DNA of 64,000 nt from the NCBI GenBank assembly GCA_037501455.1, contig CM074855.1, positions 57,357,001 through 57,421,000 on the forward strand, given 5' to 3'. This DNA comes from Lantana camara (lineage: Eukaryota; Streptophyta; Magnoliopsida; Lamiales; Verbenaceae). Of this stretch, positions 1,661 through 55,021 are shown in pieces. The position numbers and the translations under genes are program-made. Position 1 is the first letter of the stretch; each line of letters starts with the position of its first letter. Below the pieces are notes generated by a model. The model did no database searches and was not told where the DNA came from. It saw only the letters and a list, made by a program, of their open reading frames with translations.

Positions 1661-1765
1661 TGAGAGACGGGGATTCTCTCAGGGTTGTCAAGAGACGGGT
1701 TTCTCTTATTACGTGCTCGAGAGATGGGGTTCTCGCGTTGGTTATTGAGAGACGGGGCACTCTCA
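1661..1765 (+). repeat. Tandem hairpin array, 4 units (element Z)
   Basis: Four short inverted repeats built on GAGAGA-CGGGG-TCTCTC lie at 1661-1680, 1690-1707, 1718-1736 and 1746-1765. Unit 2 is AAGAGA...TCTCTT, a paired change relative to GAGAGA...TCTCTC. Related arrays are at 16422-16640 (minus-strand element B) and 41016-41150 (element D). Confidence 0.8.
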
Positions 1766-9732: not shown

Positions 9733-12348
9733 TGTAACGCCCCGAGTTTTCACACGTGTAGGTAAGTGTTACGTGCACATTTTTATTTAATTATGTGATT
9801 TTATAAATTGATTTGCTAATTGAATTCGTTTCTAATTTGATTTATTTGATTAAATTCTATATGGGTTCCAATATGCGCTATATATATATGAATGATTTTG
9901 TGAAAATGTGAATTTCGTGAATTTGGTGTTAATTGAATGAAATTACATGTCTCGTGTAACCCGTGGGTTTGATTATAACTTATTTGAATGTTTTGGACTC
10001 AATTGGAAATTGAGTTTGGGCTTAATTGCCACCTTTTGAAAGTTTAGGGACCTATTTGTATAATAGGCAACCCTGAACGGTTTTCGCGATATCTTGAGCT
10101 CCGGAACTCGAAATCGAGATCCGTAACCGGCGTTGAACTTTTTTCGACGTTACCTATTCATTAAACTTGACCTCGTACTCTTTCGATATCATTTGAACAT
10201 TTGACAACAAACCTTTCCGTAGCCTCGACTTTATAACTTGTTTTGAAACATTTTCTTAACCGTACCGGACTTGGACCGACCCGTATCCTACCTATTTTGT
10301 CACTGAATATCAGCATTTGTTCCCTTATGCATCTCATTTCATCGATCATCATCATTCCAAGAGAGGAAGAGAGCTCCAAGAAACCCTTGTTTTTTAGCAA
10401 CCAACTTTGAGCTCAATAGTTACCAATCCTCCATCTCTCTCCAAGGTAATAAGTGTTTTGTAAGCTCCATCGTATTCTCTATATTTTCATCTAAGGGAGG
10501 CATGATAGAGGTTGGAGAATTATGTGTTTTGAGTTTGAGCATGAATTGAGGGTTTGATCTTGAACATGGGATTTTAATGGTTTTAAGTGAGAGTTGATGC
10601 ATGGAATGTGTTGCTCGTAGCTTCCTTATCGTTTCTATATGCTAGGTTTTTGTGTTGGTTGAGTATAGCATGATTTTCCATTAATGAAGCTTGAAGCTTC
10701 CATGGATGAAAGCTTGTTATTGGGTGATCTTTTGTCAATCTTATGCATGAATTCTTGCATATATGAACGAATTGCATGTTATATGTGAATTATATAGATT
10801 AAATTCATGTCTAACTGTGTATAAGAGATTCCTTATTGCTGCCCCTGTTTTTGCAAGCTTTTTCCACGCAAAAACAGGGCTTCTGCTCTGTTTTCTTGGC
10901 AAAACGATGAGCTGACACAGCCGTGTCAGCTTTGAACTGAAAATGGACACGGCCGTGTTGGGCTCTCGACTTTGAATTTTTCTAATTTTAACTTCGGACA
11001 CAGCCGTGTCCAATTCCTTTGAAAACTCAACACGGCCGTGTCAAGCTCTCGACTTTGAATTTTTGGATTTTTAAACCTTGGACACGGCCGTGTCCGTTTC
11101 CTTTGAAAACTCAACACGGTCGTGCCATTTGAAATGGCAGCTTTGGAGAACCTCTTTTCTTGCTTATATCTCGTTTTTGCCTCGTGATGGTGGAATATAT
11201 GTAACGTGATTATATTAAGCTATGTTTTATGACTGATCTTTGATATTGATAACCATATGAATGCAAGTATGAAAGTATGAACGATATGATCGGGAACGCA
11301 TACGATTTTTATCGTATAACGAACGAACCTTGTTGAATTATGTGTTTAATTGGATTCTATGACTTTCATGACCATATTTGAACATGATATTGCATAGCCG
11401 AGCGTCAAATGTGGTCATATTGAGTCTCACACTACCATTATCACACAGATATTGATCTAGTGGGTGACGAGGTCGGGCAGTGAGAGTGTTGTCGAGTTCT
11501 CTTGTCTACCAGGTGGGTTTTTCTTCTATTAGTTAACAATATGACCCCGAACACCTAAAGTGCAAGATTTTGGCCAAAACCCTATATATGTATTTATATC
11601 AAGTTTTAACGAACAAATGTTTTCGAATGAAAGCCTTTGTTATGATTGTCCTACCAAAACATTTTGGCGAGAAATGAATGTTCACAATGAATGGGGGCCC
11701 GGGACTTAGTGTATTGGTGAACCGGGGAAGCATGGGCTGACGGGAATCCACATATACTAGTTCCAACAATTTCGGCAACCTGGATTTCACTAGGAAATTA
11801 GTGAATGAAAGGGGTCCCGTGCTTTTGGGGATTCATGTACCCCTCTAGCATTAATGAATGAGGGTTCGGGCCTTGCAAACCCGTTCCCTACCCGGAGGAA
11901 GAAGGTGGTATATGAACGATTGAATGAATGATCGAATGTATGTGCACGGAAGAATGTAATGTATGAATGAATGACTAATGGATTACAGGAGGTGATGGTT
12001 GGAGATAATGCACGCCCTCTCGCCGGGCCACTAATGACCTAATGAATGAAATGAATTGTTATAATCCTATTCGTTGTATTTTATTTCCCACTTGGGAAAA
12101 ATGCTTCTAAACCTCGAATAAGGATTATAACTTGCATGTATGTGTTTCAATTCCGCGATATACTGATATTATGCCTATCTTTTTATACCCACCAGTCTGT
12201 TTAAGACTGAACCAGGAGTTGTTTCAGTTGTTTTTGCAGGAAGGGATGCTAGGCGGGATACAAGTCTGAGAGAGAGTCTTGCATAGTGTCTAGCCTTTCT
12301 TTCTTTACACTCATACGATTACTTGTATTGATACTCTTGGATTTTGTT
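9733..12348 (+). repeat. Element A 3' LTR, left part
   Basis: It aligns with 2054-4676 of the 5' LTR. It carries the early palindrome (10103-10122), the ACACGGCCGTGT array (about 10911-11128), the long-stem arms (12058-12073, 12115-12131), the CAGTCT hairpin (12193-12209) and GCTAGGCGGGA (12248-12258). Element B interrupts it after TTGTT (12344-12348). Confidence 0.93.
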
Positions 12349-15300
12349 TGTTGCACCCCGCACGTGAGGCACCACATCCCCCACACTAAGACTCAACACG
12401 AGTAACGAAATAGTAAATCCGCACCCGTATCAAACCCTAGCGAACGGGAGACAAACATAAAAACCTTCCTAAGCTAGGCGGAACTAGACCCTGCAATGAT
12501 AACCAAATCACAATATATAATGCATGGCAAAGCCCAAGTACAAACATACAAACCATAAACGGAATTTGGGCTCTTCAGGCCTCTTTTAAAACATAACAAA
12601 ACCAAGTAAAAGCAATTCAATAACGATTACATAAATATTCAAGTCCAAGATACTACAGAATCGAATCAAACATAAATCCAATACATGAATGAGTGCAGGG
12701 ACTCTCCTAACCTAACTGGACCCACTTAAAGACTCCAAACACCTCCGCCTAGCTCGAAACTCCAAAGCCAAACCTGCACACTAAAGTGTTGGGGAGGGAG
12801 AGGGTCAGTCTCTAGAAGACTGAGTGAGCAGGAGCGATATACATATATAAAAACATGCACATACAAGTCATAAATTCCGAATAAGGTTTTATTTGAAATT
12901 AGTTCCCAAGAAGAGCAAGAGAATGACTAATCCATGCTCGGATTTTATGACTAATCATATTAATTCATTACATTCATAAATCATACATAAACATAAGGCT
13001 CGGCGAGTGAGCGTGCACAATCTCCAACCAAACTCCGACCGTGTACGACAAATATCCTTAATATGTTGATTAGGCGATCATGCAATATATCATAAAACAC
13101 ACAGACCATAAATCATATCATAAATATATTCGTTTGGGTAATCCGTGTCCCGGCTTTCCCGCACGGTGCATAATCATATCATAACATATACATAAGCATA
13201 AGCATAAATCATAACCAACCTTCTTCCTCCGGGTGGTGGACGGGCTTGCAAGACCCGGCCACCGGTTCATACATAGGCCCATGGGGGTACATGAATCCCC
13301 CAAAGGCACTCAGCTCCCACTCCCCGCTAAACCTCCTAGCGAGGGCCGGTATCACCGTAGTTTGGTTGGGACTAGTATATGGCATCCCCGTCAGCCCTTG
13401 CTTCCTCGGTTAGCCACATATACTAAGTCCCGGGGCCCGAACAAGCATAAATATAAATGTGTCTCGCCAAACATATCAATTCATACCTAGGATACATACT
13501 ATAAGAAATCATACTTTACCGTGTAACTCGGCATATGTTATATACGTACCTCTCCGTGTCATCCGAATCCGTAGCTAGCATGAAGATACACGGTTTGGAG
13601 CATAGCCTCATTAAAAAACCATTTTTAAGCTTATATACGCTCATACATATAATTCAGAAGAATTTACTCGATAACTTCATTTGAAAACCATATATATATA
13701 ATCGTAAGGTTTTGGCCAAAGCTTTTCACATAAGGGTTGTAGGGTTTGTTACATAGGTAGAACAAAACCACCCTCACCTGAACCGTGACGAAACAAGGAA
13801 CGAGTTACCAAGTGCCCGAAGGATCAAGATCTCTCCAGCCTAGAGATAAACTGTACAAAAGACAACATGACGTGTTCGTGAGACTCAAGACTCTAAATGA
13901 ACCACAAATGACGCACGACAATGCTCAAGCATGATATGAATGCACAAAGATGATATTATGTCATGAAAGTGTTCATGTGCACTATTAAGGCATTTAAATC
14001 GTATAACCAAGTCATTCACTCATTCATTAATTTTCATTCAAATTCATCAATTCATATCTCCAATCAAATTAATTCAAGAATTCAAATAGGAGCATAGAAC
14101 ATATTCAAGCTCTCCCAAAATGCTACCACATACTTTATATTACATAAGATAGCATATTTCCAAGGTTTGACAACAAGAAGGAAGCATATGAAATAGAAAA
14201 TGAATTATGCGATTCATAAACGACATATAAACACACATAAACGGCAATAAGCAAAAGCATGCCTATAACTCATCCAAATGCCATGAAATTAAACCACAAT
14301 GCTCCCAACATATAGAAAAACAAGTTCATAGTTCAACACAAAAGGAGATAAAGTCATCCAAGAAGTGAAATAAATCAAAAACCGAAAAGGAAGCAACAAG
14401 GACTGCGCAAGGGAAGGGACACGGGGGTGTCACCCTCCTTAGCCAAACTGAGCCACGACCGTGGCTCAGTATAGACCTACCCAGAAGGTGTGACACGCCC
14501 GTGTCTCACACTTATGTGTAAATGAGACACGGGGGTGTCACGGTACAGAACTAAACCACACACAAAGTTTTACCGGCAAAACTGAACCCATACCAAATCA
14601 ATCCAAAAGCATACCAAATCAACTCCAAATTCTATGAAACATAATATAAAACATATTTAGCATGTTAGGAACATTTTTCATTTAGAGTTAAAAGGCTAAA
14701 TCACACGTTAAGATCATCTAAATCATGCATAAAAACTGGGTCGCTAAAATCGCACATAAGAGCCCTATTGTTTCAATCAGCCATGATCAAGTACTTAGGG
14801 GTTGAATTTGGATCTGAAATCTTGGGAAAAGCATTATAACATACTAAAAAACTAATATACTTCATATATATGCAAAATGGCACAAATTAAAGCACATTAG
14901 GGTGACCACCAACCACACAATTGTCACAGCAGCAAGTCTGTCAAAGATCATGCATAAGAACAGGCCATGTCTTTCGGTTTTGAGGCTTAAAATGGATCCA
15001 AATACTTGAAACATCAATTTTAACATATAGAGCAATGAGTGTACATAATTTCCATGCAATTTCACATGAAAAGAAGATCATTTGGTCAAGCAACAAAGCA
15101 AAATGAACAGCAGCAGTCCGGAAAACAGGGGAAGCAGTTTGATCATCAAGTTTGGAACTCCATATCTCATAATTTCACCAAAGGGTCAAGAGATAAAATC
15201 CTTCTCATATCGTATACTATCAGTTAGGAAAGAAATAGGTCAAGAAACAAGCTCATATGATCATGTATAAGCAAGGAAATCAGCTACACAAGCAAATAGG

Positions 15301-16362
15301 TCACAAGAGCAAAAATCCCAAAAAGTTCATACCAAACTCATCACCCAAACTCTAATCAAATCTGATCCAAATCAAGAATTTAATGGATGAAATCAAGCAT
15401 AATAGAGTAGAGAAGACATAAATATTCATACCTTGAAGATTAGAAGAAGAAGGGAGGTGATTTGAGCTCCAAAATCACAAGAATGGCCAAGGTTTTCTCT
15501 CCTTTCTTCTCTCTTTCTCTCTCGATCAGTTCCAGCTGCAAGGGGAGATATTTTGGCTCGGTTTTCAGAGGTAAAGGGGGAAGAAATAGCTTAACTCAAG
15601 GTACATAAGTCATGGTTTAAATTATGGTTAGGTTAGAGGAGTGTTAAGGGTCCCACCACGAAGACTAGTCAACAAAAGAAGCTCTTCTTGCACGAGTTGC
15701 TCGTTACGGTTGGATTTCGGAGGTCTTAATGATTTCAAAAAGGTATGAGGCTTGCTCCATTGTCTCCGAATCGTCGATACGAAGGCAACGGAGGTGTCAG
15801 AATTCAAATCCGAATTCCCGAGCTCAAGATATCACGTAAGGAACCAAGGGTGCGCTAATTGCTCGTTAGCCCCCGATTTGGTTCCACAATCAAAATTAAA
15901 TTCGTTAACACAACAAATGAGTCCGAAAACATAAAACGAGCATATAGGCATGTTCATAACACACATATTTACGACATACTAAATTTCCATACCATTCCGA
16001 TATCATTACATATATGAACGAAGTACAAATAGAACACTCATGCGCATGAATGAATTCATAACGTTATAAATTAATTACTAAAACTTAAATCCCATTTTAA
16101 TTAAATTAAAACCAACTAATAACATGTTGAAATTAATTAACGAAATTACCGAAATAGTTAAGGTAACACGAAACCTTATTTAAGAAATTAAACACTAAAT
16201 ATCAAAGTAAAATAAAATGAATTAATCAAAATAACCATAGTCTATAGTTTAAATCAAATATAAACACTTATAAACAATTAATCATATAATTAAATAATTA
16301 ATTTGCGCAACTTATAAACAAATACGCCACATTATTTTAAACTGAAAAACTGGGGCGTTACA
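12349..16362 (-). repeat. Element B 3' LTR (4014 bp)
   Basis: On the plus strand it starts TGTTGCACCCCGCACG and ends GGGGCGTTACA. Structures at plus-strand positions are: GCTAGGCGGAA (12473-12483) with TCCGCCTAGC (12744-12753); CAGTCT hairpin (12806-12822); long-stem arms 12867-12880 and 12938-12951; a block shared with element F (13222-13440); palindrome array (14416-14540); early palindrome (15799-15818). Confidence 0.93.
14416..14540 (-). repeat. LTR palindrome array, 4 units (element B 3' LTR)
   Basis: Units include GACACGGGGGTGTC, TGAGCCAC-GACC-GTGGCTCA (14449-14468, perfect 8-bp stem), GTGACACGCCCGTGTCTCAC and GAGACACGGGGGTGTCA. The same array is at 21656-21780 in the other B LTR and 34375-34499 in the solo LTR. 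Confidence 0.85.
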
Positions 16363-16398
16363 ATCTCTCCCCCTTAAAAAGAATCCGTCCTCGGATTC
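16363..16398 (-). promoter_or_regulatory. Polypurine tract and pre-PPT hairpin (element B)
   Basis: Read on the minus strand, GAATCCG-AGGA-CGGATTC (16398-16381, perfect 7-bp stem) is followed by AAGGGGGAGAT next to the 3' LTR. Confidence 0.85.
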
Positions 16399-16421
16399 AC
16401 AACACGCCTGAAAACAAACAA

Positions 16422-16640
16422 TGAGAGATTCCCCGTCTCTCAGAAAGAACAAGGAGAGAGCCCCGTCTCTCGAGCAGCAATGAGAGAACCCCGTCTCTCG
16501 CAAGCAACAAGGAGAGAGCCCCGTCTCTCGAGCAACAATGAGAGAACCCCGTCTCTCGCAAGTAAAGAGAGTACCCCGTCTCTCAAACAAAATAAGAGAA
16601 TCCCCGTCTCTTATAAACAAAGAGAGCACCCCGTCTCTCA
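16422..16640 (-). repeat. Tandem hairpin array, 8 units (element B)
   Basis: Eight inverted repeats lie at 16422-16442, 16453-16472, 16481-16500, 16511-16530, 16539-16558, 16566-16584, 16593-16613 and 16620-16640, with a period of about 27-31 bases. The minus-strand consensus is TGAGAGA-CGGGG-NN-TCTCTCA. The unit at 16593-16613 has TAAGAGA...TCTCTTA, a paired change that keeps all seven base pairs. The CGGGG loop is kept in every unit. Confidence 0.9.
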
Positions 16641-19553
16641 ACCGAAAATAAAACAAGGAAGTCTCCAATACTCCCAAGCAACTCACGCAAAACCAAATTT
16701 AAAATCACATAAGGCACCCAAAGCAAGTAATAAATGTCGCCCACATAGATTTTCAATTACTCCAAGTAATTTAACACAGTACAAGATCAAAGCACTTTAA
16801 CATAAAAATTATGTAGGTTAAATTTGCAAGGATGCATGTATCATGAATGCTATAAGTACCCTTCACCATAGTTGCAAAATTCAGATTTGTGAGTTGTCGT
16901 TGTCCAAGGTATGATCTGTCCTGAATGTAACTCAGTGCCCAGCTTGTCTTGGACCTCTTCAGGGCTCCCCGGTGAAACGATTGCTGAATTTTTTAAGGAG
17001 TATATTCTTAGATCCTTTCTAACTTGTACTGCTACCCAACTTCTTCAATCCTTATCCAAATCGGTGCTCAACATATCCCCGAGGATCACCACTCTGAGCA
17101 AACTTGATAATTCGATCCCAACCTTACGACGTTTGTTCTTATAGTCTCTCCCAACACAAGTCTTTTCCTACCTTCGGTTCCAATTGTCCGTTCATTCCCC
17201 TTTTACCCCCTCAATGTTATATTCGATAACTGGTCCCATATTTCCTTACCCGAAGACAGAAGGTTCTTGATGAATCTTGAAGTTTGAGACCAATCCTTCA
17301 ATTATCACCCTTTCTATTTGGTCTCTACTTAAGCTTCCTTCTGGATTATCGTTGATATAACTAATGACTCGATAATATTGTCTTGGACTCCTTCGTACTT
17401 CATTGACTAAGTCTTGATCGACACCATCCCCTTATATGATAGCTTGATTCGGTTTTCCCTTGTTAATTCCAACTTAGAAGTTCATAGAAACTCTCTTATG
17501 ATTCCATCACCTCCAGATCAGAATTCCATACGTAGCTTCTCTCTTAACAGCTTAACCATAACCGCCGTCTTATTCATTCCTAATCACCACCCTCAAGACT
17601 CCCAGATTCTCCTTACTTTGCATCCTCGTCATTACTCCTAACATATTCATTCGAGCACCACTCCCTTCGTCCAATTCACCTCTCGATCGTGCTCTCCCCC
17701 TTAAAATTTTTCGCTCTCACATGTCAAACTCCATGAATCCTTCTTTCATTGAAATTTTTGCTGAGCCACTTTTGTTTCTTTAATTCACTCCTAAGGTTCA
17801 ATTCAAACCCTTCAATAATTACTTCCTTCTAATCCCCAACTTTTTTCTTTCTCGCTCTTCTTGAAATCTAGACTAATTTGATCCCCTCTTGTATTTCCAT
17901 TCTTTCAACTAAAGGTAATCCCTTCAAGGATCGAAAAGGAGTTACATTATTTCCTAACCAATGCTCCCTTATTTGGAAATTTTAGTTGAATTCGTTACTT
18001 CGCCTCTGAGATTAAGGTTTCTCCAAAACTCTTCAACTTAGTTTCTTCGGTGTAGATCGTGCTAGCTAAGCTACATGCTCGGAACTCCCAAGATATAACC
18101 CAACTATTCTTCTCATCTTGATTCGAGTAAGCCTTAATCAAAGAATCGATTGATGAACAAGGTGGAGCCATTCCCTATCAATTAAACACTAAGCCATGCA
18201 TGTTGGATTAACATGCATATGCACATAGTAACAGTTAAAGATGCAACGATGCAATACGTTGGAGCAATTATATTAATTAAACATAAACGTACGTATAGAT
18301 AAAGAAAGCAACTAAGTTAAATCGATGCATGATGTTCATGCCATGAATATGCAGAACCTGTCACCGAGGTGGTGAACTTTTAGCTTGATGACGTGTTTCT
18401 CATTCCCATAATTGTAACTTTCTTTGAAGACATTGATAATTCCTTAGCTTTCCATGGTTTTCGAATCTCCCCAACCTTCTTCCATCCATTTGTATATCCT
18501 ATGGCCCGAACGTGCTATTCTTGAACCCAAGGTCTTATTTGTCAATGGAGTTTACCCCTCAACGTACTTCCAAGCATCAACCTCCAAAGGTCATCCGACT
18601 CTTCATCTTCATGTCCTCTCCGGTAAAAGTTCCTTTAGCTTATCCTTTGTTTCCGATCCACGCGCATAATTCACCCATGATAACGCTTTCCATTCTTGCT
18701 TGCTTCTTGATGTCTCCATAAGGTTCTGAGAAGACGACACGATTTGTATTCCTCGATGCTCATAAGTATCTTTGCCTTGCGTCCATTTGTTGTCCCACGC
18801 TTATATTCGTATCAAGTGAGCTTCCATAGTTGACCTCATAATGAGCTTTATGATTAACGGCTCCCCATCCTTGCATCTGAGTTGAGTCGAACCCTTTTAA
18901 CACATCTTGTATCCGATCCCTTGAAGCTTCCCAATTTGGTCTTCCAATCACTGAACCATTCCAAACTCGGAGCTTCAACGGTGAACCTTGGAGCATTTAA
19001 TCTTGTATTAAATGTCTTCAAAATCGGGGTGGTGAAGAGTTCCACACCCCTCTCGTTGTCTTACGCATTCCTCAAGTTAGAACTTGAGTCTTTGCAATTC
19101 TTGTATGTTGAGAACCTTCAAGGTTTGTAGTTAGGGCATGATTGATGAACCTTCCCGTGATCCAAGCTTTCTCCCATGATACGAGCCATGATAGGTAGTC
19201 CCATTGTGCACGCCGTGGAATTTGAACACTTGGCCTTCAAGTTACTTTGTCAATCGTAGTTGGTGTGAATGGTAGCTTTGTTTGCATGATAGTAGCCTAT
19301 ATAAGAAAGATCAACTCAAATATGGATGCATGAGGATTAGTGTATGCTCATGGCACGTAGTTAAAGGAATCAATGCACATAGAATGGAAAATGCATATTT
19401 AAAGCAACTAAATGAGAGAATAGATCGTATACACGTATTAAGCAATTTCCAACAATTAGTATCAAATATTCATGCCAAATCGATGCAATGTACACATTAA
19501 CAAGTTGTTCCTATGCCGTGCGACCTAACTGACTCAAACACGACTCAAGAACA
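16641..19553 (-). mobile_element. Element B interior: non-coding domain
   Basis: About 2.9 kb with no recognisable domain in any frame. The scattered open stretches (for example 16911-17144, 17414-17641 and 18454-18721) lack family motifs. Minus-strand sequence of about 16945-16830 matches element D (about 40705-40830): both contain GACAAG, then GGCACTGAG or GCACTGAG, then GGACAGATCA and GGTGAANGGTACTT. Part of the T-rich middle (17100-18200) is low in complexity on the plus strand. The roughly 100 bases next to the primer site resemble the gag leader of element F (GAGTCAGT...AGGTCG, GGAACAACTTGT), consistent with a retained packaging region. Confidence 0.75.
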
Positions 19554-19581
19554 CCGGTTTTGCAACCGGGCTCTGATACCA
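19554..19581 (-). promoter_or_regulatory. Primer-binding site (initiator tRNA-Met) and GNRA hairpin, element B
   Basis: On the minus strand TGGTATCAGAGC (19581-19570) is followed by CCGGTT-GCAA-AACCGG (19569-19554), a perfect 6-bp stem with a GCAA loop. The spacer to the 5' LTR (TCCTTAAG) is 8 bases. Confidence 0.9.
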
Positions 19582-19589
19582 CTTAAGGA

Positions 19590-22500
19590 TGTAGCACCCC
19601 GCACGTGAGCCACCACATCCCCCGCACTAAGGCTCAACACGAGTAACGAAATAGTAAATCCGCACCCGTATCAAGCCCTAGCGAACGGGAGACAAACAAA
19701 AAAACCTTCCTAAGCTAGGCGGAACTAGACCCTGCAATGATAACCAAATCACAATATATAATGCATGGCAAAGCCCAAGTACAAACATACAAACCATAAA
19801 CGGAATTTGGGCTCTTCAGGCCTCTTTTAAAACATAACAAAACCCAGTAAAAGCAATTCAATAACGATTACATAAATATTCAAGTCCAAGATACTACAGA
19901 ATCGAATCAAACATAAATCCAATACATGAATGAGTGCAGGGACTCTCCTAACCTAACTGGACCCACTTAATGACTCCAAACACCTCCGCCTAGCTCGAAA
20001 CTCCAAAGCCAAACCTGCACACTAAAGTGTTGGGGAGGGAGAGGGTCAGTCTCTAGAAGACTGAGTGAGCAGGAGCGATATACATATATAAAAACATTCA
20101 CATACAAGTAATAAATTCCGAATAAGGTTTTATTTGAAATTAGTTCCCAAGAAGGGCAAGAGAATGACTAATCCATGCTCAGATTTTATGACTAATCATA
20201 TTAATTCATTACATTCATAAATCATACATAAACATAAGGCTCGGCGAGTGAGCGTGCACAATCTCCAACCAAACTCCGACCGTGTACGACAAATATCATT
20301 AATATGTTGATTAGGCGATCATGCAATATATCATAATACACACAGACCATAAATCATATCATAAATATATTCGTTTGGGCAATCCGTGTCCCGGTTTTCC
20401 CGCACGGTGCATAATCATATCATAATATATACATAAGCATAAGCATAAATCATAACCAACCTTCTTCCTCCGGGTGGTGGACGGGCTTGCAAGACCCGGC
20501 CACCGGTTCATACATAGGCCAATGGGGGTACATGAATCCCCCAAAGGCACTCAGAACCCATTCCCCGCTAAACCTCCTAACGAGGGCCGGTATCACCATA
20601 GTTTGGTTGGGACTAGTATATGGGATCCCCGTCAGCCCTTGCTTCCTCGGTTAGCCACATATACTAAGTCCCGGGGCCCGAACAAGCATAAATATAAATG
20701 TGTCTCGCCAAACATATCAATTCATACCTAGGATACATGCTATAAGAAATCATACTTTACCGTGTAACTCGGCATATGCTATGTACGTACCTCACCGTGT
20801 CATCCGAATCCGTAGCTAGCATGAAGATACACGGTTTGGAGCATAGCCTCATTACAAACCATTTTTAAGCTTATATACGCTCATACATATAATTCAGAAG
20901 AATTTACTCGAAAACTTCATTTGAAAACCATATATATATAATCGTAAGGTTTTGGCCAAACCTTTTCACATAAGGGTTGTAGGGTTTGTTACATAGCTAG
21001 AACAAAACCACCCTCACTTGAACCGTGACGAAACAAGGAACGAGTTACCAATTGCCCGAAGGATCAAGATCTCTCCACCCTGGAGATAAACTGTACAAAA
21101 GACAACATGACGTGTTCATGAGACTCAAGACTCTAAATGAACCACAAATGACGCATGGCAATGCTCAAGCATGATATGAATGCACAAAGATGATATTATG
21201 TCATGAAAGTGTTCATGTGCACTATTAAGGCATTTAAATCGTATAACCAAGTCATTCACTCATTCATTCATTTTCATTCAAATTCATCTATTCATATCTC
21301 CAATCAAATTAATTCAAGAATTCAAATAGGAGCATAGAACACATTCAAGCTCTCCCAAAATGCTACCACATAATTTATATTACATAAGATAGCATATTTC
21401 CAAGGTTTGACAACAAGAAGGAAGCATATGAAATAGAAAATGAATTACGCGATCCATAAACGACAAATAAACACACATAAACGGCAATAAGCAAAAGCAT
21501 GCCTATAACTCATCCAAATGCCATGAAATTAAACCACAATTCTCCCAAAATATAGCAAAACAAGTTCATAGTTCAGCACAAAAAGAGATAAAGTCATTCA
21601 AGAGGTGAAATAAATCAAAAACCGAAAAGGAAGGAACAAGGACTGCGCAAGGGAAGGGACACGGGGGTGTCACCCTCCTTAGCCAAACTGAGCCACGACC
21701 GTGGCTCAGTACAGACCTTCCAAGAAGGTGTGACACGCCCGTGTCTCACACTTATGTGTAAATGAGACACGGGGGTGTCACGGTACAGAACTAAACCACA
21801 CACAAAGTTTTACCGGCAAAACTGAACCCATACCAAATCAATCCAAAATCATACCAAATCAACTACAAATGCTATGAAACTTAATATACAACATATTCAG
21901 AATGTTAGGAACATTTTTCATTTAGAGTGAAAAGGCTAAATCACACGTTAAGATCATCTAAATCATGCAGGAAAACTGGGTCGCCAAAATCGCACATAAG
22001 AGCCCTATTGTTTCAATCAGCCATGATCAAGTACTTAGGGGTTGAATTTGGATCTGAAATCTTGGGGAAAGCATTCTAACATACTAAAACACTAATATAC
22101 TTCATATATATGCAAAATGGCACAAATTAAAGCACATTAGGGTGACCACCAACCACACAATTGTCACAGCAGCAAGTCTGTCAAAGATCATGCATAAGAA
22201 CAGGCCATGTCTTTCGGTTTTGAGGCTTAAAATGGATCCAAATACTTGAAACATGAATGTTAACATATAGATCAATGAGTGTATATAATATCCATGCAAT
22301 TTCACATGAAAAGAAGATCATTTGGTCAAGCAACAAAGCAAAATGAACAGCAGCAGTCCGGAAAACAGGGGAAGCAGTTTGATCATCAAGTTTGGAACTC
22401 CATATCTCATAATTTCACCAAAGGGTCAAGAGATAAAATCCTCCTAAAATCATATACTATCAGTTAGGAAATAAATAGGTCAATAAACAAGCTCGTATGA

Positions 22501-23602
22501 TCATGTATAAGCAAGGAAATCAGCTACACAAGCGAATAGGTCACAAGAGCAAAAATCCCTAAAAGTTGATACCAAACTCATCACCCAAACCCTAATCAAA
22601 TCTGATCCAAATCAAGCATTTAATGGATGAAATCAAGCATAATAGAGTAGAGAAGACATAAATATTCATACCTTGAAGATTAGAAGAAGAAGGGAGGTGA
22701 TTTGAGCTCCAAAATCACATGAATGGCCAAGGTTTCCTCTCCTTTCTTCTCTCTTTCTCTCTCGATCAGTTCCAGCTGCAAGGGGAGATATTTTGGCTCG
22801 GTTTTCAGAAGTAAAGGGGGAAGAAAGAGCTTAACTCAAGGTACATAAGTCATGGTTTAAAGCATGGTTAGGTTAGAGGAGTGTTAAGGGTCCCACCACG
22901 AAGACTAGTCAACAAAAGAAGCTCTTCTTGCACGAGTTGCTTGTTACGGTTGGATTTCGGAGGTCTTAATGATTTCAAAAAGGTATGAGGCTTGTTCCAT
23001 TGTCTCCGAATCGTCGATACGAAGGCAACGGAGGTGTCGGAATTCGAATCCGAATTCCCGAGCTCAAGATATCACGTAAGGAACCAAGGGTGCGCTAATT
23101 GCTCGTTAGCCCCCGATTTGGTTCCACAATCAAAATTAAATTCGTTAACACAACAAATGAGTCCGAAAACATAAACCGAGCATATAGGCATGTTCATAAC
23201 ACACATATTAACGACATACTAAATTTCCATACCATTCCGATATCATTACATATATGAACGAAGTACGAATAGAACACTCATGCGCATGAATGAATTCATA
23301 ACGTTATAAATTAATTACTAAAACTTAAATCCCATTTTAATTAAATTAAAACCAACTAATAACATGTTGAAATTAATTAACGAAATTACCGAAATAGTTA
23401 AGGTAACACGAAACCTTAATTAAGAAATTAAACACTAAATATCAAAGTAAAATAAAATGAATTAATCAAAATAACCATAGTCTATAGTTTAAATCAAATA
23501 TAAACACTTATAAACAATTAATCATATAATTAAATAATTAATTTCCGCAACTTATAAACAAATACGCCACATTATTTTAAACTGAAAAACTGGGGTGTTA
23601 CA
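19590..23602 (-). repeat. Element B 5' LTR (4013 bp)
   Basis: It pairs with 12349-16362. Structures at plus-strand positions are: GCTAGGCGGAA (19714-19724) with TCCGCCTAGC (19985-19994); CAGTCT hairpin (20047-20063); long-stem arms 20108-20121 and 20179-20192; palindrome array 21656-21780; early palindrome GGAATTCG-AATC-CGAATTCC (23039-23058, perfect 8-bp stem). Confidence 0.93.
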
Positions 23603-23941
23603 TTGTTTATGTATGGAGCGTACATATATATGGTACCTATATGTATCTTATTCAGACTTAAATGTTGGTGACCTAGAGCATATAGCTCAATATATGGAAT
23701 ACATGTTGGTACCTAGAGCATCTAGCTCAGCATATAATATATGAATGATTGCTTCCGCCTTTCTGTTACTCTGATTGTTGTTGTTGTTGTTGTTGGGGTT
23801 TAAGTTATAGGTTAGTCCCGCCTGGCTTAGCGAGTGTGTATGTCTCCGTTCACTATGATTCGGCTCGTGTGTGGAAATCCATTTCATATACGGGTCGGGT
23901 CATGGTGCGGGGGATGTGACGTCTCGCGCTCGGGCGTTACA
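23603..23941 (+). repeat. Element A 3' LTR, right part
   Basis: It resumes with the duplicated TTGTT, matches 4672-5011 of the 5' LTR (including a GTT repeat run near 23780 and TCCCGCCTGG at 23816-23825) and ends GGGCGTTACA. GTTGG at 23942-23946 is the right-hand flank of A. Confidence 0.92.
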
Positions 23942-31957: not shown

Positions 31958-32455
31958 TAATGCGTACGAATTATTTAATATTAAGTATTTGATTAATTAA
32001 TTTTGTCCATTTACATTAATTGAATTAATTAGTGCATGCAATTTATGGTAACTAATTATGTGTGCATGTATTAATAAGTTATATATGTATTTATATTATA
32101 TTATTTGTAATATTATTAATTTTATTGTTACATTGCGTATGAGTGACATTTACGTGCTTCGTTTCTATATGAATTGATACCGCAATTTCGTGCAAATTTA
32201 ATATGTTGGACTTATACGTGTGTTGTATATGAATCTATGTTCGTTTCGTATTTTCGGGTTCATTTGCATGTGTTTCGGATTTATTTTAATTTTGGAATCC
32301 AAGTCGGGGGACTAACGAGCACTTAGCTCACCCTTGGTTCCGTATTTGATATCTTGAGCTCGGGAACTCGGATCCGAGTTCCGTCAACTTCGTTGAACTC
32401 GTATCGAACATTCGGGTTTAATAAACTTAGCCTTATATTTTTCCATGTAGCACCC
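31755..32455 (+). repeat. Element C 3' LTR, left part
   Basis: It starts TGTGACGCCCCGATAATTC. It holds an (AT)n run (about 31919-31954) and a perfect 20-base palindrome GGAACTCGGATCCGAGTTCC (32363-32382) after TATCTTGAGCTC. It is interrupted after TTCCA (32451-32455) by a solo LTR. Confidence 0.9.
31919..31954. repeat. (AT)n microsatellite
   Basis: An uninterrupted AT dinucleotide run inside the C 3' LTR. The matching place in the 5' LTR (about 24275-24295) is much shorter. Confidence 0.95.
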
Positions 32456-35400: not shown

Positions 35401-36308
35401 AGAAGAAGAAGGGAGGTGATTTGAGCTCAAAATCACAAGAATGGCCAAGGGTTTTCTTCTCCTTTCTACTCTCTTCTCTCTCGATCAGTTCCAGCTGAAA
35501 AGGGGCAAGTTTGGATCGGTTTTTGCTGCTAAAAGGGAGAGAAAGGGGTTAACCCAAGGTACATAAGTCATGGTTTAAGGTATGGTTAGGTTAGAGGAGT
35601 GTTAAGGGTCCCACCATGAAGACTAGTCAACAAAAGGAGCTCTTCTTGCACGAGTTGTCCGTTACGGTTGGATTTCGAAGGTCTTAATGATTTCAAAAAG
35701 GTATGAGACTTGTTCCATTGTCTCCGAATCGTCGATACAAAGGCAATGGAGGTGACGGAATTCGAATCCGGATTCCCCAGCTCAAGATATCACGTACGGA
35801 ACCAAGGGTGTGCTAATTGCTCGTTAGCCCCCGACTTGGTTCCACCAACAAAATTAAATTCGTTAACGCGCCAAATGAATCCGAAAACATAAACCGAGCA
35901 TATAGGCATGTTCATAACACACATATTTACGACATACTAAATTTCCATACCATTACATATAAGAACGAAGTACAAATAGAACACTCATGCGCATGAAGGA
36001 ATTCATAACGTTATAAATTACTTACTGAAACTTAAATTCCATTTTAAACAAATAAAGCCAACTAATAACATGTTGAAATTAATTAACAGAATTACCGAAA
36101 TAGTTTAGGTAACATGAAACCTTAATTAAGAATTTAAACACTAAGTATCAAAGTAAAATAAAAATGAATTAAATTAAAATAACCATAGTTTCTAGTTTAA
36201 ATCAAATATAACATTTATAAACAATTAATCATGTAATTAAATAATTAAATTGCGCAATTTATAAATAAATACGCCACATTATATTAACCGGAAAACTGGG
36301 GCGTTACA
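32456..36308 (-). mobile_element. Solo LTR of the element B family (3853 bp)
   Basis: TGTAGCACCCCGCACG...GGGGCGTTACA, flanked by the target duplication TTCCA (32451-32455 and 36309-36313). It aligns end to end with the B LTRs, with more differences than B's two LTRs show from each other. No interior is present, as left by recombination between two LTRs of one element. Structures: GCCAGGCGGA (32570-32579) with TCCGCCTAGC (32841-32850); CAGTCT hairpin (32903-32919); long-stem arms 32964-32977 and 33035-33048; palindrome array 34375-34499; early palindrome 35757-35776. Confidence 0.93.
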
Positions 36309-36313
36309 TTCCA

Positions 36314-38678: not shown

Positions 38679-41015
38679 TGCACCAGGGTGAATATAGAGA
38701 ACTCGAGATGCGTGGTCTTCATAGATGGAGTTAGAGTTAATAACTAGGAGTAGGAATGGTGGATCGTTTTGGAGATGCAGGGTAGAAAGGCATTTGATGA
38801 GATAAGAGTTGTCGGGGAATATAGTTGAGTCCGAAAATTGATATATGCAGCTCTCCACAATAAAATACGATAATCAAATTCAACGGGATCATTCAATCTA
38901 AGGAATGAAGTGAATGAACCTTGGAGGTATTCGGGTTCAGGGTTCGGATCATTAAAGATATATTGATAATGAAGAGGGGTTAAAGTAAATTGGGTCCGGT
39001 ACGAGTCATGCACCAAGGGACATCAAGGAAGGGTTTCTAAATAATCCTATTAATTAGGGATCGAGTGGTAGGAGTCAAGATCGGGAAAAGTCCGAATTCG
39101 AGAGCTCTAGATTTTGATCAAGATGGAAAACGAGTCGGGAGGGAATTGAAGAAAGGCAAGTAAGGTGATAAACACAAATTCATGGAAGATGATAATACTA
39201 AGGACAGGATTTGAGTTCATTTTTTCAATCCAAGCTGAATTGTCGTGTTGTGAGGTTGAATTGGAAAATCTGGAGCAACAAATGGAAACGGATAAGCACG
39301 GGAGTCTTGATGAATGTGATGATGAGAAGTAGGGTTCAGAACTACATTGCGGTGTAATTGTGTAAGAGAACTTGGGCAAAGTTGAAGGGTGATTCTCCGG
39401 GAGAAATGCGGGTGTTACTACAGTGAATGTTGAAAAAGCAGGGATCGCGAAATTGTAATTCCGGACTATGGAAGACACAAGTGATACACAAAGATTCAAG
39501 GGAAATTTGAAGACCGTGGGAAAGACATGGCATGATTACCAAATCAAAGTAATCTTGTGATTGAAGGAACGAGGAGAAGCTACCGAGCTAACAACATGTT
39601 GTATTGGTGACAGGTTTCAAAACATTCATGGCACGTGCATCATATTTTGCATCAATTATTTATTCTCTTTACTTTAGTTCGTGCGCGTATTTCTATCTGA
39701 TTTCGTTGCTCTAATGTGCTGTATATTTAATTGTTGTAAGTGTGTTACGTGCATTGTCATTTTAACCCGACATGCATTTTAGTGTTTATGTGATAGGAAG
39801 TTCTTTCACCTCACCTACCAAGTATCCTTCGAAACGAGCTACCTTCGAATTAAGAAAAAAAGGAATCATTAGGTTACGGAAGATGATTTTGGGAAATAAA
39901 GAACTTCAAGTAAGGGATAGGTTGGTAAAAAGGAAGATCCGGGGGTTTTATGTTAGTGAGCGGAAGCGAATAAGACGACTTTAACGGTTGACCATTAAAA
40001 TGAGAGCTAAGCTATTAAAGTTGGGTTGAAGATTTCCACGGGGAATAGAGAAGATAGCTCTTTAAATCATTCTATGTATATTAGTTAATTTGAAGATAAA
40101 GGAGTTACAAAGGGGTGGAGAAACTCCTAAGCTAAGCTGTCAGGAGGGAACCAAATCAAGTTATCATAGAAAGGGATGTTGTTAATAAAGCTTGGTTCTA
40201 TGAATTCAGAAAGAGTTTTAAGAAGAAACAAAACCGGCCAGGATGAACATTTGGGAAATTTAAATCAAATTTCAAGTATCATCAAGAACATCATCTCTTC
40301 GATTAAAGGATTGTAGGAGCCGAATACCAAATTTCACCTTAAAGGTTTAAACAGAGTAAAAAGGGTAAATTGAACGGAAGATGGGGAAAGATTTGGGGGA
40401 TATATATTAAGGTTGGGAATAAACTTTTAAAGACGCCAAGGATAGCTACTTTCAATGGTACGTTAGGCTTTGATATGGATAAAGAAAATAGTTATGGATC
40501 TGATTTCGGGATGAATGATTTAAGGGTATTCGGGGAGGTCAAGCTCGGCCATTTAAAAAAGAGTTGGGTTGGTTGGATAAGGATTATGGGAAATGATGAA
40601 AGATCGAAAAGGATTAAAAGCAGTAAAAGTCCAAAGGGAATCAAGAGTAAAATCCTTAGCGGATTTATCATTGGCGTCACCCAGGTACCCTGAAGAGTTT
40701 AAAGACAAGTCAAGCACTGAGCTCACTTCTGGGACAGATCAGACAATGGATAACAAAACTCATAGCCCTAAACTATGCAACCACGGTGAACGGTACTTGT
40801 AACATCCATGATATATGCATTCATGCAAATTTATTTCAAATAATTTCTATGTTATATGCTTTGATCTCTTATCATGTTCAATTTGCTCGTAGTATTTGAT
40901 AGTCAACGTGAATGATATTTGTTACCTGCTTCGAGTGCTTTATGCGATTTTAATTATAATCTTGCGTTGAGTTGCATGGGAGTATTGAAGATTTCCTTGC
41001 TTTATATTTTTGTTT

Positions 41016-41150
41016 GAGAGACGGGGTGCTCTCTTTGCTTGCGAGAGACGGGGTTCTCTCAATATTTCTTGAGAGACGGGGCGCTCTCATTGTTGGTTGT
41101 GAGAGACGGGGCTCTCTCCGTGTTGCTTGTGAGAGACGGGGAATCTCTCA
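41016..41150 (+). repeat. Tandem hairpin array, 5 units (element D)
   Basis: Units at 41016-41033, 41043-41060, 41071-41088, 41101-41118 and 41131-41149 all have GAGAGACGGGG followed by 1-2 bases and CTCTC or TCTCTC. The period is 27-30 bases. The CGGGG loop is invariant. Confidence 0.9.
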
Positions 41151-41171
41151 TTGGGTGTTTGGTTGAGTAGT

Positions 41172-41207
41172 GAATCCGAGGACGGATTCTTTTTAAGGGG
41201 GAGAGAT
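41172..41207 (+). promoter_or_regulatory. Pre-PPT hairpin and polypurine tract (element D)
   Basis: GAATCCG-AGGA-CGGATTC (41172-41189, perfect 7-bp stem) then AAGGGGGAGAGA next to the LTR start at 41208. Confidence 0.85.
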
Positions 41208-50326: not shown

Positions 50327-53300
50327 TTACTCGCTCGAAAACAACTCGGGGTGAAACCTTTTCATCTTATCCTCCGTCTCCCACATAGCCTCTTCGGTTT
50401 TATCACTTCTCCAAAGAACTTTAACTAGTGGAATACACCGATTTCGAAGTTCCTGAAACTTTCGATCCAATATCTTAATCGGCTTCTGAACGAAGGTGAG
50501 ATCCGGCTCTAATTCCACTTCTTCAACTGGTAGAACCTCGGACTCGTCTCGATAATACTTTCGGAGCTGTGAAACATGAAACACGTTATGAATTCCAGTC
50601 AAACTCGGAGGCAAGTCCAGTCGATAAGCCGTATCCCCAATCTTCTCCAAAATCTCATACGGTCCCATATACCGAGGGTTTAATTTTCCTCCTCGTCCAA
50701 TCCTTGAGAACCCTTTTCGTGGGGAAGCCTTTAAGAAAACCCTATCTCCAATCTCAAACTCCAAATTCTTTCTCCGAAGATCTGCATAACTCTTTTGTCG
50801 ATCCTGAGCAGCCTTCATCCATTGTCTAATTATCTGGACCTTATCAATAGCTTCTTGTACAGCCTTAGAGGGTTTTTCCTTCTTTTCCCCTCTTTTAATC
50901 CCTTCTTGCTTGGTCCAATTCCATTCCTCCAAGTCAAAGAACAATGGTGATCGACATTTACGTCCATAAAGAGCTTCATAAGGGGCCATTTCAATCGAGG
51001 CTTGATAGCTATTGTTGTAAGCAAACTCGATTAACGACAACTGTTCATTCGACGAGCTTTGAAAGTCCAATGCACATGCTCTCAACAAATCCTCCAGATA
51101 CTTAATTAACCTTTCTGATTGTCCGTCGGTCTGAGGATGGAAAGTTGTGCTGAATTGAAGCCTTGTTCCCAAACACTTCTGTAATTCTTGCCATAACCGT
51201 GAAGTAAATCTGGGATCCCGATCCGAGACAATACTAACAGGTACACCATGAAGCCTGACAATCTCATCATTGTATCTCTTAGCCAACTTACCCACTTTGT
51301 CAGACATCCTGATAGTAAGAAAATGAGCTGATTTTGTCAATCTGTCAACAATAACCCAAATTCCATCGAAACCTCCTCTCACTTTTGGTAATCCCGAAAC
51401 AAAATCCAAAGCTATTTGTTCCCATTTCCATTCCGGGATAGGTAATGGTTGAACTAGCCCCGATGGCTTTTGATGTTCTGCCTTTACCACTTGACAAGTC
51501 ATACAATGTTTCACGAAGTTGATAACATCCCGTTTCAATCCATTCCACCAATAGAATTGCTTAAGATCCTTATACATTTTGTTCCCTTCGGGATGTATCG
51601 AATAACCTGACCGATGGGCTTCCTCAAGAATAATCCTTTTTAACTCTTCCGGGACAACAACTCTATTCTTGAACCTTAGAAGTCCCGTATCATCAAACCC
51701 AAACAGACACTCTGAATCAGTTCGAGCTTTCTCAGCTAATTTCTGAACCTCGGGATCAATCCTCTGAGCATCAAATAATCTCTGTTTAAGATCAGGTTGA
51801 ACCGTAATATTCCGAACACTAGCCCTCAGTCTGAACAACTCATTCTCATCTCCAATTTCCACTTTCACATTGGACACGCTAGCTTTCCGACTAAGCGCAT
51901 CCGCGACCAAATTGGCTTTGCCGGGATGGTATCGGATTGTACACTCATAATCCGCCAAAAGTTCCATCCAACGCCGTTGTCTCTTATTCAATTCCTTTTG
52001 CGAGAATAAGTATTGGAGACTCTTGTGATCGGAAAAGACCTCGAACGAAATTCCATAAAGATAATGTCTCCACTTACCCAAAGCAAAGATCACTGCCGCT
52101 AATTCCAAATCGTGAGTGGGGTAGTTCTGTTCATGCTCTTTCAATTTCCTTGAGGCATAGGTGATTACTCTTCCATTCTGCATCAACACACATCCCAAAC
52201 CTTCCTTTGAGGCGTACGTATAAACTGTATATCCTTCTGTACCTTCGGGAAGTGCTAATACAGGAGCGGTGGTCAACTTCTCCTTTAAAAGTTGGAAGCT
52301 AGCCTCACATGCCTCGTCCCACTCAAACTTAACCGCTTTCTTAGTCAATCGGGTTAAAGGAGCCGCAATCTTTGAGAAATCCTGAACGAATCTCCGATAG
52401 TAGCCTGCCAAACCCAAGAAACTCCTTACTTCTGAAGCATTTTTCGGGCTTTGCCATTGAATAACCGTCTCAATCTTAGAAGGGTCTACTTCCAAACCTT
52501 TCCTTGAAATAATATGACCCAAAAATGCTACCCGATCAATCCAGAACTCGCATTTGCTAAACTTAGCATACAACCGATGTTCCCTTAAGGTCTCCAACAC
52601 AATCCTGAGGTGCCTTACATGATCCTCCGGAGTTCTCGAATAAACCAAGATGTCATCGATGAAGATTACCACAAACTTATCCAAATAGGGCCGGAAAATT
52701 CGATGCATCATATCCATAAAAGCAGTCGGAGCATTAGTCAATCCAAAAGGCATCACTACGAACTCGTAGTGTCCATACCGAGTGTTAAATCCCGTCTTCG
52801 GAACGTCCTCTTCCCGGATCTTCAATTGATAATATCCTTGTCTCAAGTCCAATTTTGAGTAAACCCCCGAACCTTGTAACATGTCGAATAATTCCTCAAT
52901 ATGGGGTAAAGGATATTTATTCTTTACGGTCATCCGATTAAGCTCCTGGTAATCTATACACATTCTTAGGGTTCCATCCTTTTTCTTAACAAAGAGAACC
53001 GGAGCACCCCAAGGTGACGAACTTGGCCTTATATATCCAACTTTGAGCAATTCCTCTAATTGAATCTTTAACTCTTTCAACTCGGCCGGTGCCATCCGAT
53101 ACGGAGTCTTAGAATACGGTGTGGATCCTGGATGTAAGTCAATAACGAACTCAATCTCACGGTCTGGTGGTAAAGAACTCAAATTCTCCGGAAACACATT
53201 GGAGAAATCCTTAACAACCGCGGTATCCTCCAACTTAACTTGATCTTTCGGCCTATTCAGAAGGTAAGCAATAAATCCCGTTGCTCCTTCTCTCATCAAC

Positions 53301-54844
53301 TTGTGAGCTTCCATATAAGACAAGAGAGATACCGTTCTTGATCCACTACCAATCACCAATTCATTCCCCAAAATCACCTTCTTCGCAAAACAATCAACAT
53401 TGGCCCGATGCCTGGATAACCAGTCCATACCCAAGATAACTCCGTACCTCCTCATGGGCATAACAATTAAATCAGCCGGATATTCTTTCCCTTCAATCAG
53501 AACTGAACACTCCCGAACCAACTGATCTGTCTGAAGACTCCCTCCAAGAGGCGAACTCATCAAATAACAAGAAGAAAGACAACTGACAGACAAGCACAGA
53601 GTGGCAACTATATCACAAGAAATAAAGGAATGCGTGGCACCCGGATCAAAGAGTGCATGAATGCTCATGTTATGTATGCATAGGGTACCTTCTACCACGG
53701 CTGTGGGATCAATCTCTGCATCTTGCTCCTCACCCTCGAGGGCGTAAGCACGAGCCCGAATCATTGGCCTTTGAACTCCTTTCTGAAATCCGGGGTTCTT
53801 GTAGGGATATGTCTCCGCCATATGGTCACTTTTCCCACATATGAGGCACAAGTTCAACCTTCTTCGACAATTATTATAGGTATGGGTCGGTCCCCCACAA
53901 TGAGTACATGGAGGCACATCCGGGCGTGAATTTGTAGGTGCCGGAGCCATAAGTAGAGCCTTTGGTCGAGTCGGTGCGGCCTGAGAACCTTGTCCTCCAA
54001 ACCGAGCCTTCTTAAACGGACCCTTAGGAGGTGGACTAGCTTGAATCATCGACCTCTTTCCTGAATTCGATCCGGAACCTCTTCCCATTGGAGCTCTAAA
54101 CATCGGATCCTTCTTCTTGAATTCCTCCTCTTGAACCAAAGCCCTTTGCACGGTGTCGGCAAATGACTCGAAATTGTGACCCGCTTGACCGTGTCTCAAA
54201 TCTTGTCTCAATCCCGCTACGAATTTCCTTGCTTTCCTCTTCTCATCCCGGGTGACATGAGGAGCATATTTCCCAAGTCTATTGAATACGGTGAGGTATT
54301 GAGTCACCGTACGAGCACCTTGCTTTAATTCCATAAACTCTTGCTCCTTCCTTTCCCTTACCACTTCCGGTACAAAGCATTCCCGGAATTCTCTCTTGAA
54401 AACCTCCCAAGTGACTTCTTCTTCATCCACCTCGAGCTTCTCCCTTGTTCGTTCCCACCATTCATATGCATCTCCATCGAGTTGGAATATAGCAAATTGA
54501 GCCTTCTCTTGCGTACTAAACTGTCGGACCCCAAATATCCTCTCCAATCGAATCAACCAACCCTCCGAGACCGCATCGTCAATAGAACCAGAAAACCGAG
54601 GGGGGTTGTAACTCACAAACACTCCATGAGGATCTCTATTGTTATGGTTTGGTGGAGGAGCTTGTTGTTCTGCTTGTTGTGGTGGGGGAGCTTGAGCCCT
54701 CCTATGCTCAACATAATTGAAAACCGCTTCCATAAAATTCCCCATGTCCATCGGTGGTGCTTGTGGTTGGGGTGGAGGCGTAGGAGATCGATCATGATGA
54801 TGACGATGTCCGGGAGATCTCTCACGGTGTCTACGTGGCGGCAT
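50327..54844 (-). CDS. gag-pol polyprotein, Ty3/gypsy chromovirus (element F)
   Basis: A single uninterrupted frame of 1505 codons from the ATG at 54844 (MPPRRHRER...); an in-frame TTG lies three codons upstream. Residues are counted here from that TTG (subtract 3 for the ATG). Capsid-like gag spans about 85-250. Knuckle 1 is C316, C319, H324, C329; knuckle 2 has C336, C339, H344 but Tyr349 in place of the last Cys. Protease has DPGA at 403. RT has D669 and FIDD 731-734. RNase H shows Tyr880 where A and C have the catalytic Asp of YTDAS, with E917, D942 and D985 present. Integrase has H1080, H1087, C1117, C1120 and D1150, D1211, E1247 (35-residue spacing). GPY is at 1397-1399 and the chromodomain at about 1458-1505. 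The frame is intact, but the two substitutions suggest impaired RNase H and RNA binding. Confidence 0.96.
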
Positions 54845-55021
54845 CCTGTTCAAGAAATACTGAAATGCATGCTATTTTTAGTCCATGCATGCAAGTGCAA
54901 TTAATTCGATCAAAATTCGAGATTTAAAGCACACAAGCACGTAAACAATGCATATGCAACACATTGACAAGTTGTTCCTAAAGCCGAACGACCTGACTGA
55001 CTCAACACGACACTAGAGCCC

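Follow-up and report, generated by a model that had tools for sequence, protein, structure and literature searches.

In a 64,000-nucleotide stretch of the Lantana camara genome (contig CM074855.1, positions 57,357,001 to 57,421,000; hereafter the window) and at the loci sampled elsewhere in this genome, a tandem array of short hairpins occupies the 3' end of the internal region in a set of LTR retrotransposons, before the polypurine tract (PPT). The array marks elements that are without pol, not elements that are without protein genes. The two arms of its hairpins have covaried, suggesting that the array serves as an RNA signal with which such elements exploit complete relatives. Because the G-loop hairpin is repeated, lies 3', is absent from the sampled pol-coding elements and sometimes stands beside a protein with two zinc knuckles, we tentatively propose, at just short of an even chance, that the array works in cis in the RNA of pol-less chromovirus-related LTR retrotransposons, as a putative multivalent Gag/nucleocapsid-binding packaging site.

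The array and its host elements in the window

The array was first noticed in a sequence-only reading of one element, here called B, and the eight inverted repeats claimed there are present on the minus strand (Table 1). Typical units of the form GAGAGA-CGGGG(N1-3)-TCTCTC lie 27-30 nt apart, with successive distances of 27, 28, 27, 28, 30, 28 and 30 nt, and TRF gives a period of 28 with 7.9 copies. Since spacings of 27, 28 and 30 nt disrupt the frame, a peptide repeat is ruled out. The unit that had been singled out as altered on both arms is indeed so altered; the 7-bp consensus stem given with it holds for some units, the usual stem being one of 6 bp (GAGAGA/TCTCTC) around a loop of 6-8 nt. 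Similarly, the CGGGG core, described as constant, is kept in 8 of 8 units of B in the window and is variable in other copies, with TGGGG, CGGGT and TGCTGG-type loops in other families.

The two LTRs of B are 97.4% identical, and its uninterrupted target is readable at a related LTR-internal junction near 4675. We take its primer binding site, TGGTATCAGAGC, to be of the initiator-Met tRNA type. In RNA sense, 23 bases separate the array from a downstream hairpin that directly precedes the PPT. As had been claimed, B appears to be devoid of protein genes: its internal region of ~3.2 kb has no tblastn match to the polyprotein of the autonomous element F and none to the sampled gags, and the longest stop-to-stop ORFs in the part beyond the array reach 78 aa (sense) and 93 aa (antisense). 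The stretch 32445-36311 is a solo LTR of B-family type, 89-92% identical to the LTRs of B and apparently inserted in another element, C.

Table 1. Features of the array-bearing elements and of the comparator; positions refer to the window unless a sampled locus is named
Feature	Position	Strand	Basis or remark
Tandem hairpin array of B, 8 units	16422..16640	minus (RNA strand)	unit positions and TRF
Array unit of B altered on both arms, ATAAGAGA CGGGGAT TCTCTTAT	16592..16614	minus	8-bp stem
Pre-PPT hairpin of B, GAATCCG-AGGA-CGGATTC	16381..16398	minus	
PPT of B	16363..16379	minus	inferred from sequence and adjoining LTR
3' LTR of B, 4014 bp	12349..16362	minus	
5' LTR of B, 4013 bp	19590..23602	minus	
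Primer binding site of B	19570..19581	minus	
5-bp target-site duplication TTGTT flanking B	12344..12348, second copy 23603-23607		
Rest of the internal region of B	16641..19569	minus	tblastn and ORF list
Second array, element E1, 4 units including AAGAGA/TCTCTT	1661..1765	plus	
Third array, element E3, 5 units	41015..41150	plus	
Autonomous element F, one ORF	50330..54871	minus	comparator without array
Mini-Gag ORFs	L065:487-1308, L058:488-1309, L039:554-1291	plus	

Two further arrays occur in the window, in the elements E1 (internal region from about window position -1437, its left flank being taken from the sampled locus L017, to ~1990) and E3 (internal region ~38685-41207). Neither internal region matches the F polyprotein. 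With array and PPT set aside, the internal regions of B, E1 and E3 are 61-76% alike over parts, and on this sequence relatedness we regard all three as old representatives of a single lineage. The comparator F codes for gag, protease, RT, RNase H and integrase in one ORF that stops just before its pre-PPT hairpin, and the related autonomous element A carries a chromodomain. Thus, the array is present in 3 of 3 non-coding elements (B, E1, E3) and in 0 of 3 complete elements (A, C, F) of the window, the latter being array-free as had been stated. The window contains four matches to the unit pattern; in 100 dinucleotide shuffles of it, as many were never found.

The LTRs of these elements also contain hairpins. 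That of F has two with GGGG tetraloops (~57032-57087 and 48486-48540, minus strand), GAGACAC-GGGG-GTGTCTC and GGTGACAC-GGGG-GTGTCACC, whose stems differ from those of the array units; hence, the GGGG hairpin loop is not unique to the parasites. In the LTRs of A and B the hairpin loops instead read AGCC, GGCC or GGTC. Kissing of the GGGG loops of the array with C-rich LTR hairpins was considered on reading the sequences and set aside, the LTR tetraloops being variable (AGCC, GGCC, GGTC, GGGG).

A separate hairpin with a GGA-containing loop directly precedes the PPT at 16381-16398, 41172-41189 and 1958-1975 and at the ends of A, C and F, and is therefore common to complete and pol-less elements. 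It occurs in covarying versions, GGACCTGG-GGA-CCAGGTCC and GGATCTGG-GGA-CCAGATCC in other families and also AGGACCTG-AGGA-CAGGTCCT (counts include overlapping loci), and may assist plus-strand priming.

Distribution of the array among pol-less and complete elements

The exact unit pattern, GAGAGACGGGGN{0,5}TCTCTC, has 32,350 matches in the 1.27 Gb genome, a count in which a long pyrimidine run can score twice, and the reversed pattern has none. The first 30 matches along contig C1 define 16 arrays (loci L038-L067), of which 14 are distinct, two neighbouring pairs being near-identical. The start of the LTR, the flanks, the spacers and the number of units vary among these 16 arrays, with 2 to 12 accepted units per array. 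A PPT-like tract follows the array in 15 of them by script and in the remaining one, L038, by eye. A copy of the B family (L034:497-828) has an array expanded to 12 units (10 by a stricter scan). Near-identical arrays on the same strand, 6-7 kb apart, are seen at L009/L010, L050/L053 and L056/L058, suggesting LTR-internal-LTR-internal tandems. At L038 and L063 (~1200-1620, sense) a long row of hairpins with TGCTGG or TGTTGG loops precedes the CGGGG units; about 12 to 14 such upstream hairpins were counted in all, by eye, and the LTR of this family begins TGTGACATCCC or TGTAACATCCC.

The PPT motif, CCGAGGACGGATN{4,7}TTAAGGGGGAGAG, has 6,414 matches in the genome and the control has none. Within C1:0-16.24 Mb, the span shared by the matches listed for the unit and the PPT pattern, there are 23 PPTs of this type; for 15 of them an exact unit lies on the same strand no more than 400 nt upstream, proximity being judged by eye from coordinates. 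So, rather than being missing from most complete copies of the B family, the array accompanies the majority of PPTs in this small sample. That the eight array-less PPTs would belong to complete elements had been predicted before their upstream sequence was read: in the roughly 1 kb examined upstream of each, integrase sequence continues as far as the pre-PPT hairpin in all eight, in some cases with a broken frame, and a loose unit scan found no unit there. Among the 15 array-bearing PPTs, the five whose upstream sequence was examined (L041, L042, L047, L053, L061) have no gag or pol match. RT, RNase H and integrase matches are likewise absent from ~1.4 kb upstream in all 16 sampled array loci. 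The difference, 0 of 16 against 8 of 8, gives p=1.4e-6 by Fisher's test (3.1e-6 with the 14 distinct loci), the two groups having been ascertained by different patterns. Compared with pieces of A, C and F, a further 29 loci (L009-L037, mostly of the B family) gave a single match, at L013, ~4 kb from its array.

The idea that the array is specific to a protein-less class does not survive this sampling, as gag homology is present in 5 of the 16 array loci. In one of these, L067, a piece of gag shares 58% identity with the gag of C. The other four (L039, L046, L058, L065) encode what we call mini-Gags, 75-96% alike over aligned parts, with uninterrupted frames of 263-274 aa in L039, L058 and L065 and a frame split in two in L046. 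Their similarity to gag covers the N-terminal part and the nucleocapsid end, extending a little past the latter, and two CX2CX4HX4C (CCHC) zinc knuckles are retained. A Pfam gag/capsid domain was found in L067 and F, and Pfam, run on three of the four mini-Gags, gave no match for any of these three. Their dN/dS of 0.31-0.56 (Nei-Gojobori, given without a significance test) lies below 1 and so suggests constraint at the protein level. A search for mini-Gag relatives in a large protein collection, which may hold little plant transposon protein, returned 480 candidates, none at E<=0.001.

Covariation of the arms and computed folding

We examined covariation between the arms in 95 units from 19 arrays, namely the 14 distinct arrays of C1, those of E1, B, E3 and the B-family locus L034, and a second array of L012. 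L053 and L058 were left out as near-duplicates, and a candidate at L011 yielded no unit with the seed used. The search entered each C1 array by way of one or more perfect consensus units; a unit then counted if a purine-rich left arm had a pyrimidine run to its right, whether or not the two paired. Own arms pair at 5.689 of 6 positions, as against 5.451 (sd 0.037) when right arms are permuted within the array and 5.409 when they are permuted globally; none of 2000 permutations of either kind reaches the own-arm value. Relative to GAGAGA/TCTCTC, 24 cells are changed on both sides and paired while one is changed on both sides and unpaired, and the one-sided cells comprise 21 G-U, 5 A-C and 13 other mismatches; these cells are not events, as related units share changes and kinship survives shuffling. 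Paired changes on both sides are present at all six stem pairs, with that at pair 2 coming from one unit whose register was picked for best pairing and that at pair 5 from units with shorter loops. When the units with the longest loops are removed, G-U to A-C stands at 14 to 5 (p=0.06). Pairs 7-9, which serve as a negative control, show no pairing excess over permutation in the 95 units; a longer covarying stem is thereby ruled out and the stem is bounded at about 6 bp.

A subset with fixed register, consisting of 28 distinct 18-nt units (29 minus one with a deviant loop), gives a concordant picture. Here 92.9% of cells are paired versus 88.0% after shuffling, nine cells are changed on both sides versus 2.2, and the covariation score is 0.264 versus 0.168, each unmatched in 500 shuffles. 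Changes on both sides affect four of the six pairs, against a mean of 1.6 after shuffling (at least as many in 6 of 500), and further pair types number 9 versus 7.4 (53 of 500). In every slid register the covariation score and the both-side count are lower, one slide equalling the percentage paired. The covariation of the array hence exceeds that of shuffled sequence with slid registers as the control. An arm pairs better with its own partner than with the arm of the neighbouring unit in 32 of 76 comparisons, equally in 34 and worse in 10; pairing of the right arm of one unit with the left arm of the next was rejected as the intended structure, at 5.375 against 5.697 for own arms.

Genome-wide counts at stem pair 3, the one pair that this test covers, point in the same direction. 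Besides the 32,350 G-C units there are 1,555 with A-U, against ~105 expected under independence and 2 in the control, and 535 with G-U against 184 with A-C; since copies amplify together, neither the counts nor their p-values reflect independent events. Register artefacts from longer pyrimidine runs affect 16 of 100 G-U and 4 of 100 A-C units among the matches listed, and removing 15% of the G-U units leaves 455 to 184. Because the contexts of the left G and the right C, AGA and TCT, are reverse-complementary, symmetric mutation of DNA would be expected to give G-U and A-C equally. The G-U excess thus has the sign expected for pairing in the sense RNA. Together with the compensatory changes across the sampled units, these counts uphold the kept pairing that had been described from B. 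They also bear on the least probable alternative, that the units are DNA-level palindromes bound by a host DNA-binding protein controlling transcription or chromatin: many inverted repeats with a recurring core would suit such sites, but the one-strand G-U excess, the asymmetric core inside symmetric arms and the freedom of the arm letters to change as long as they pair all speak against it.

Among 28 copies of the close B family (98% identical, picked by array similarity) no pair has changed on both sides, so the absence of covariation that the sequence-only reading had named as counter-evidence holds within this family and fails across families. In these copies 7-10% of arm sites vary versus 30% of spacer sites; the CGGGG sites vary as much as the spacers (12 of 40, 30%), with 11 of the 12 changes being C>T or G>A.

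Computed folding gives a different verdict from covariation. With ViennaRNA, the z-score of the B array against dinucleotide shuffles is -0.18 on the RNA strand and -6.79 on the opposite strand, and the RNA strands of the E3 and E1 arrays score -0.28 and -0.72; none of the three is more stable on its RNA strand than shuffled sequence. As left and right arms are interchangeable, the structure with all own hairpins is not that of minimum free energy (MFE): it lies at -51.4 versus -79.7 kcal/mol in B, and in each of the ten arrays so computed it is far above the MFE. Own stems are thus favoured by covariation but not by computed thermodynamics, and co-transcriptional folding or a bound protein would be needed for them to form.

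It is against these results that an origin without selection has to be weighed, namely a neutral tandem repeat generated by slippage or strand transfer, whose arms are kept matched by hairpin-templated (quasi-palindrome) correction. This is consistent with the variable number of units per array, with the units being disfavoured in MFE folding, and with the frequency of 3'-UTR tandem repeats in plant Tat/Ogre/Retand elements, as described in the consulted parts of PMC7004042 and PMC11963269. Nevertheless, we hold it to be quite improbable: otherwise different families have much the same unit and loop in much the same place, symmetric correction at the DNA level does not predict the G-U excess, and the arms of the 28 close copies vary less than their spacers. 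Very improbable, too, is that the GGGG loops of several units or of two RNAs stack into a G-quadruplex that dimerises or marks the genomic RNA. The eight GGGG tracts of B and the five of E3 would allow it; however, by reading, E1, L038, L041 and L067 have three each and L060 two, L038 and L063 are rich in TGCTGG-type loops, and a plain quadruplex does not need a covarying stem.

Known systems and a possible role in packaging

The location of the array and the non-autonomous nature of its hosts are familiar. The literature examined, however, contains no description of a multi-copy hairpin with covarying arms that several families share and that sets the sampled pol-less elements apart from the sampled complete ones. 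A search of titles and abstract openings for such elements with hairpin arrays or packaging structures gave no match, which is weak evidence as subscription papers were mostly outside it. The nearest parallel is in the Tat lineage. According to the parts of PMC7004042 and PMC11963269 consulted, tandem repeats of Ogre/Retand elements lie in the 3'-UTR between pol and the 3' LTR, abnormal strand transfer has been hypothesised as the origin of such repeats in plant Tat elements, and those of Retand are family-specific and of unknown function, with some Retand elements lacking coding domains. A short array of variable length before the PPT and 3' LTR is shared with these. In contrast, going by the same excerpts, their repeats are downstream of gag-pol, whereas here a covarying hairpin unit is common to several families; and the complete relatives are here chromovirus-like and array-free where examined. 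With a chromodomain in A and no pol in the sampled carriers, these are not the arrays of the Tat lineage.

B itself answers to the description of a LARD, having two long LTRs, a primer binding site, a PPT (by position), a target-site duplication and a non-coding internal region of ~3.2 kb, though not all array carriers are non-coding. RNA structures that are well conserved have been attributed to LARDs and TRIMs (PMC7215508, consulted in part); the consulted part names no tandem hairpin array, and the array is here also found in gag-bearing elements. TR-GAGs, which are gag-only non-autonomous LTR elements, are resembled not by B but by L067, which has gag homology without pol within the 3 kb examined. 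The mini-Gag group (L039, L046, L058, L065) resembles them in part and differs in having no recognisable capsid-domain match. Finally, retroviral nucleocapsid binds exposed guanosines in packaging stem-loops (the portion consulted of PMC4576207), and by analogy the hairpins of the array may expose guanosines for zinc-knuckle binding. The retroviral psi differs in comprising a few unlike stem-loops in the 5' leader, as against similar tandem hairpins at the 3' end.

In the packaging reading, each hairpin would present its G-rich loop (CGGGG), and several to a dozen of them would make up a multivalent platform on which the zinc-knuckle (nucleocapsid) region of Gag could dock. The RNA so bound might then be packaged and reverse-transcribed by the pol proteins of complete relatives. 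Several observations go against this reading. The array is 3', whereas known retroviral packaging signals are at the 5' end, and elements with gag also carry it. Computed folding does not favour own hairpins; the 28 close B copies show no compensation and vary in CGGGG as often as in their spacers; the small-sample G-U excess stands at p=0.06 once long loops are set aside; the genome-wide counts cover one pair and copies that amplify together; and GGGG-loop hairpins are also present in the LTR of F. Conceivably, the mini-Gag of one group could be an adaptor linking the array to helper capsids. This would amount to two-part parasitic packaging, with a multimerised CGGGG array and, in some families, a capsid-less mini-Gag that reads it and docks the array RNA into the particles of complete elements, a scheme that we regard as somewhat unlikely as a whole.

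The main rival to packaging, RNA export or stability, is in our estimate unlikely. Here the array would be an RNA stability, nuclear-export or decay-protection element for transcripts without a long ORF, comparable to the constitutive transport elements found at the 3' end of some retroviruses. That it precedes the PPT and 3' LTR, lies in a 3' region that is not pol-coding in the sampled carriers, and has covarying stems is in keeping with such a role. On the other hand, gag-bearing elements have the array as well, its multiplicity and recurring G-rich loop better suit a repeated binding site, and Rfam covariance models gave 0 matches up to E=1 over 16300-19700.

Pol-less elements are often abundant in plant genomes, and their RNA has to enter particles made by others. 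A precise repeated motif that has evolved under pairing constraint separates the sampled pol-less from the sampled complete elements, so that their route into these particles can now be put to the test with a small RNA and known candidate proteins. If the packaging reading is right, the motif would be diagnostic for non-autonomous LTR elements; and were the two-part system true, an amplified recognition tag would let RNA parasites outcompete their helpers.
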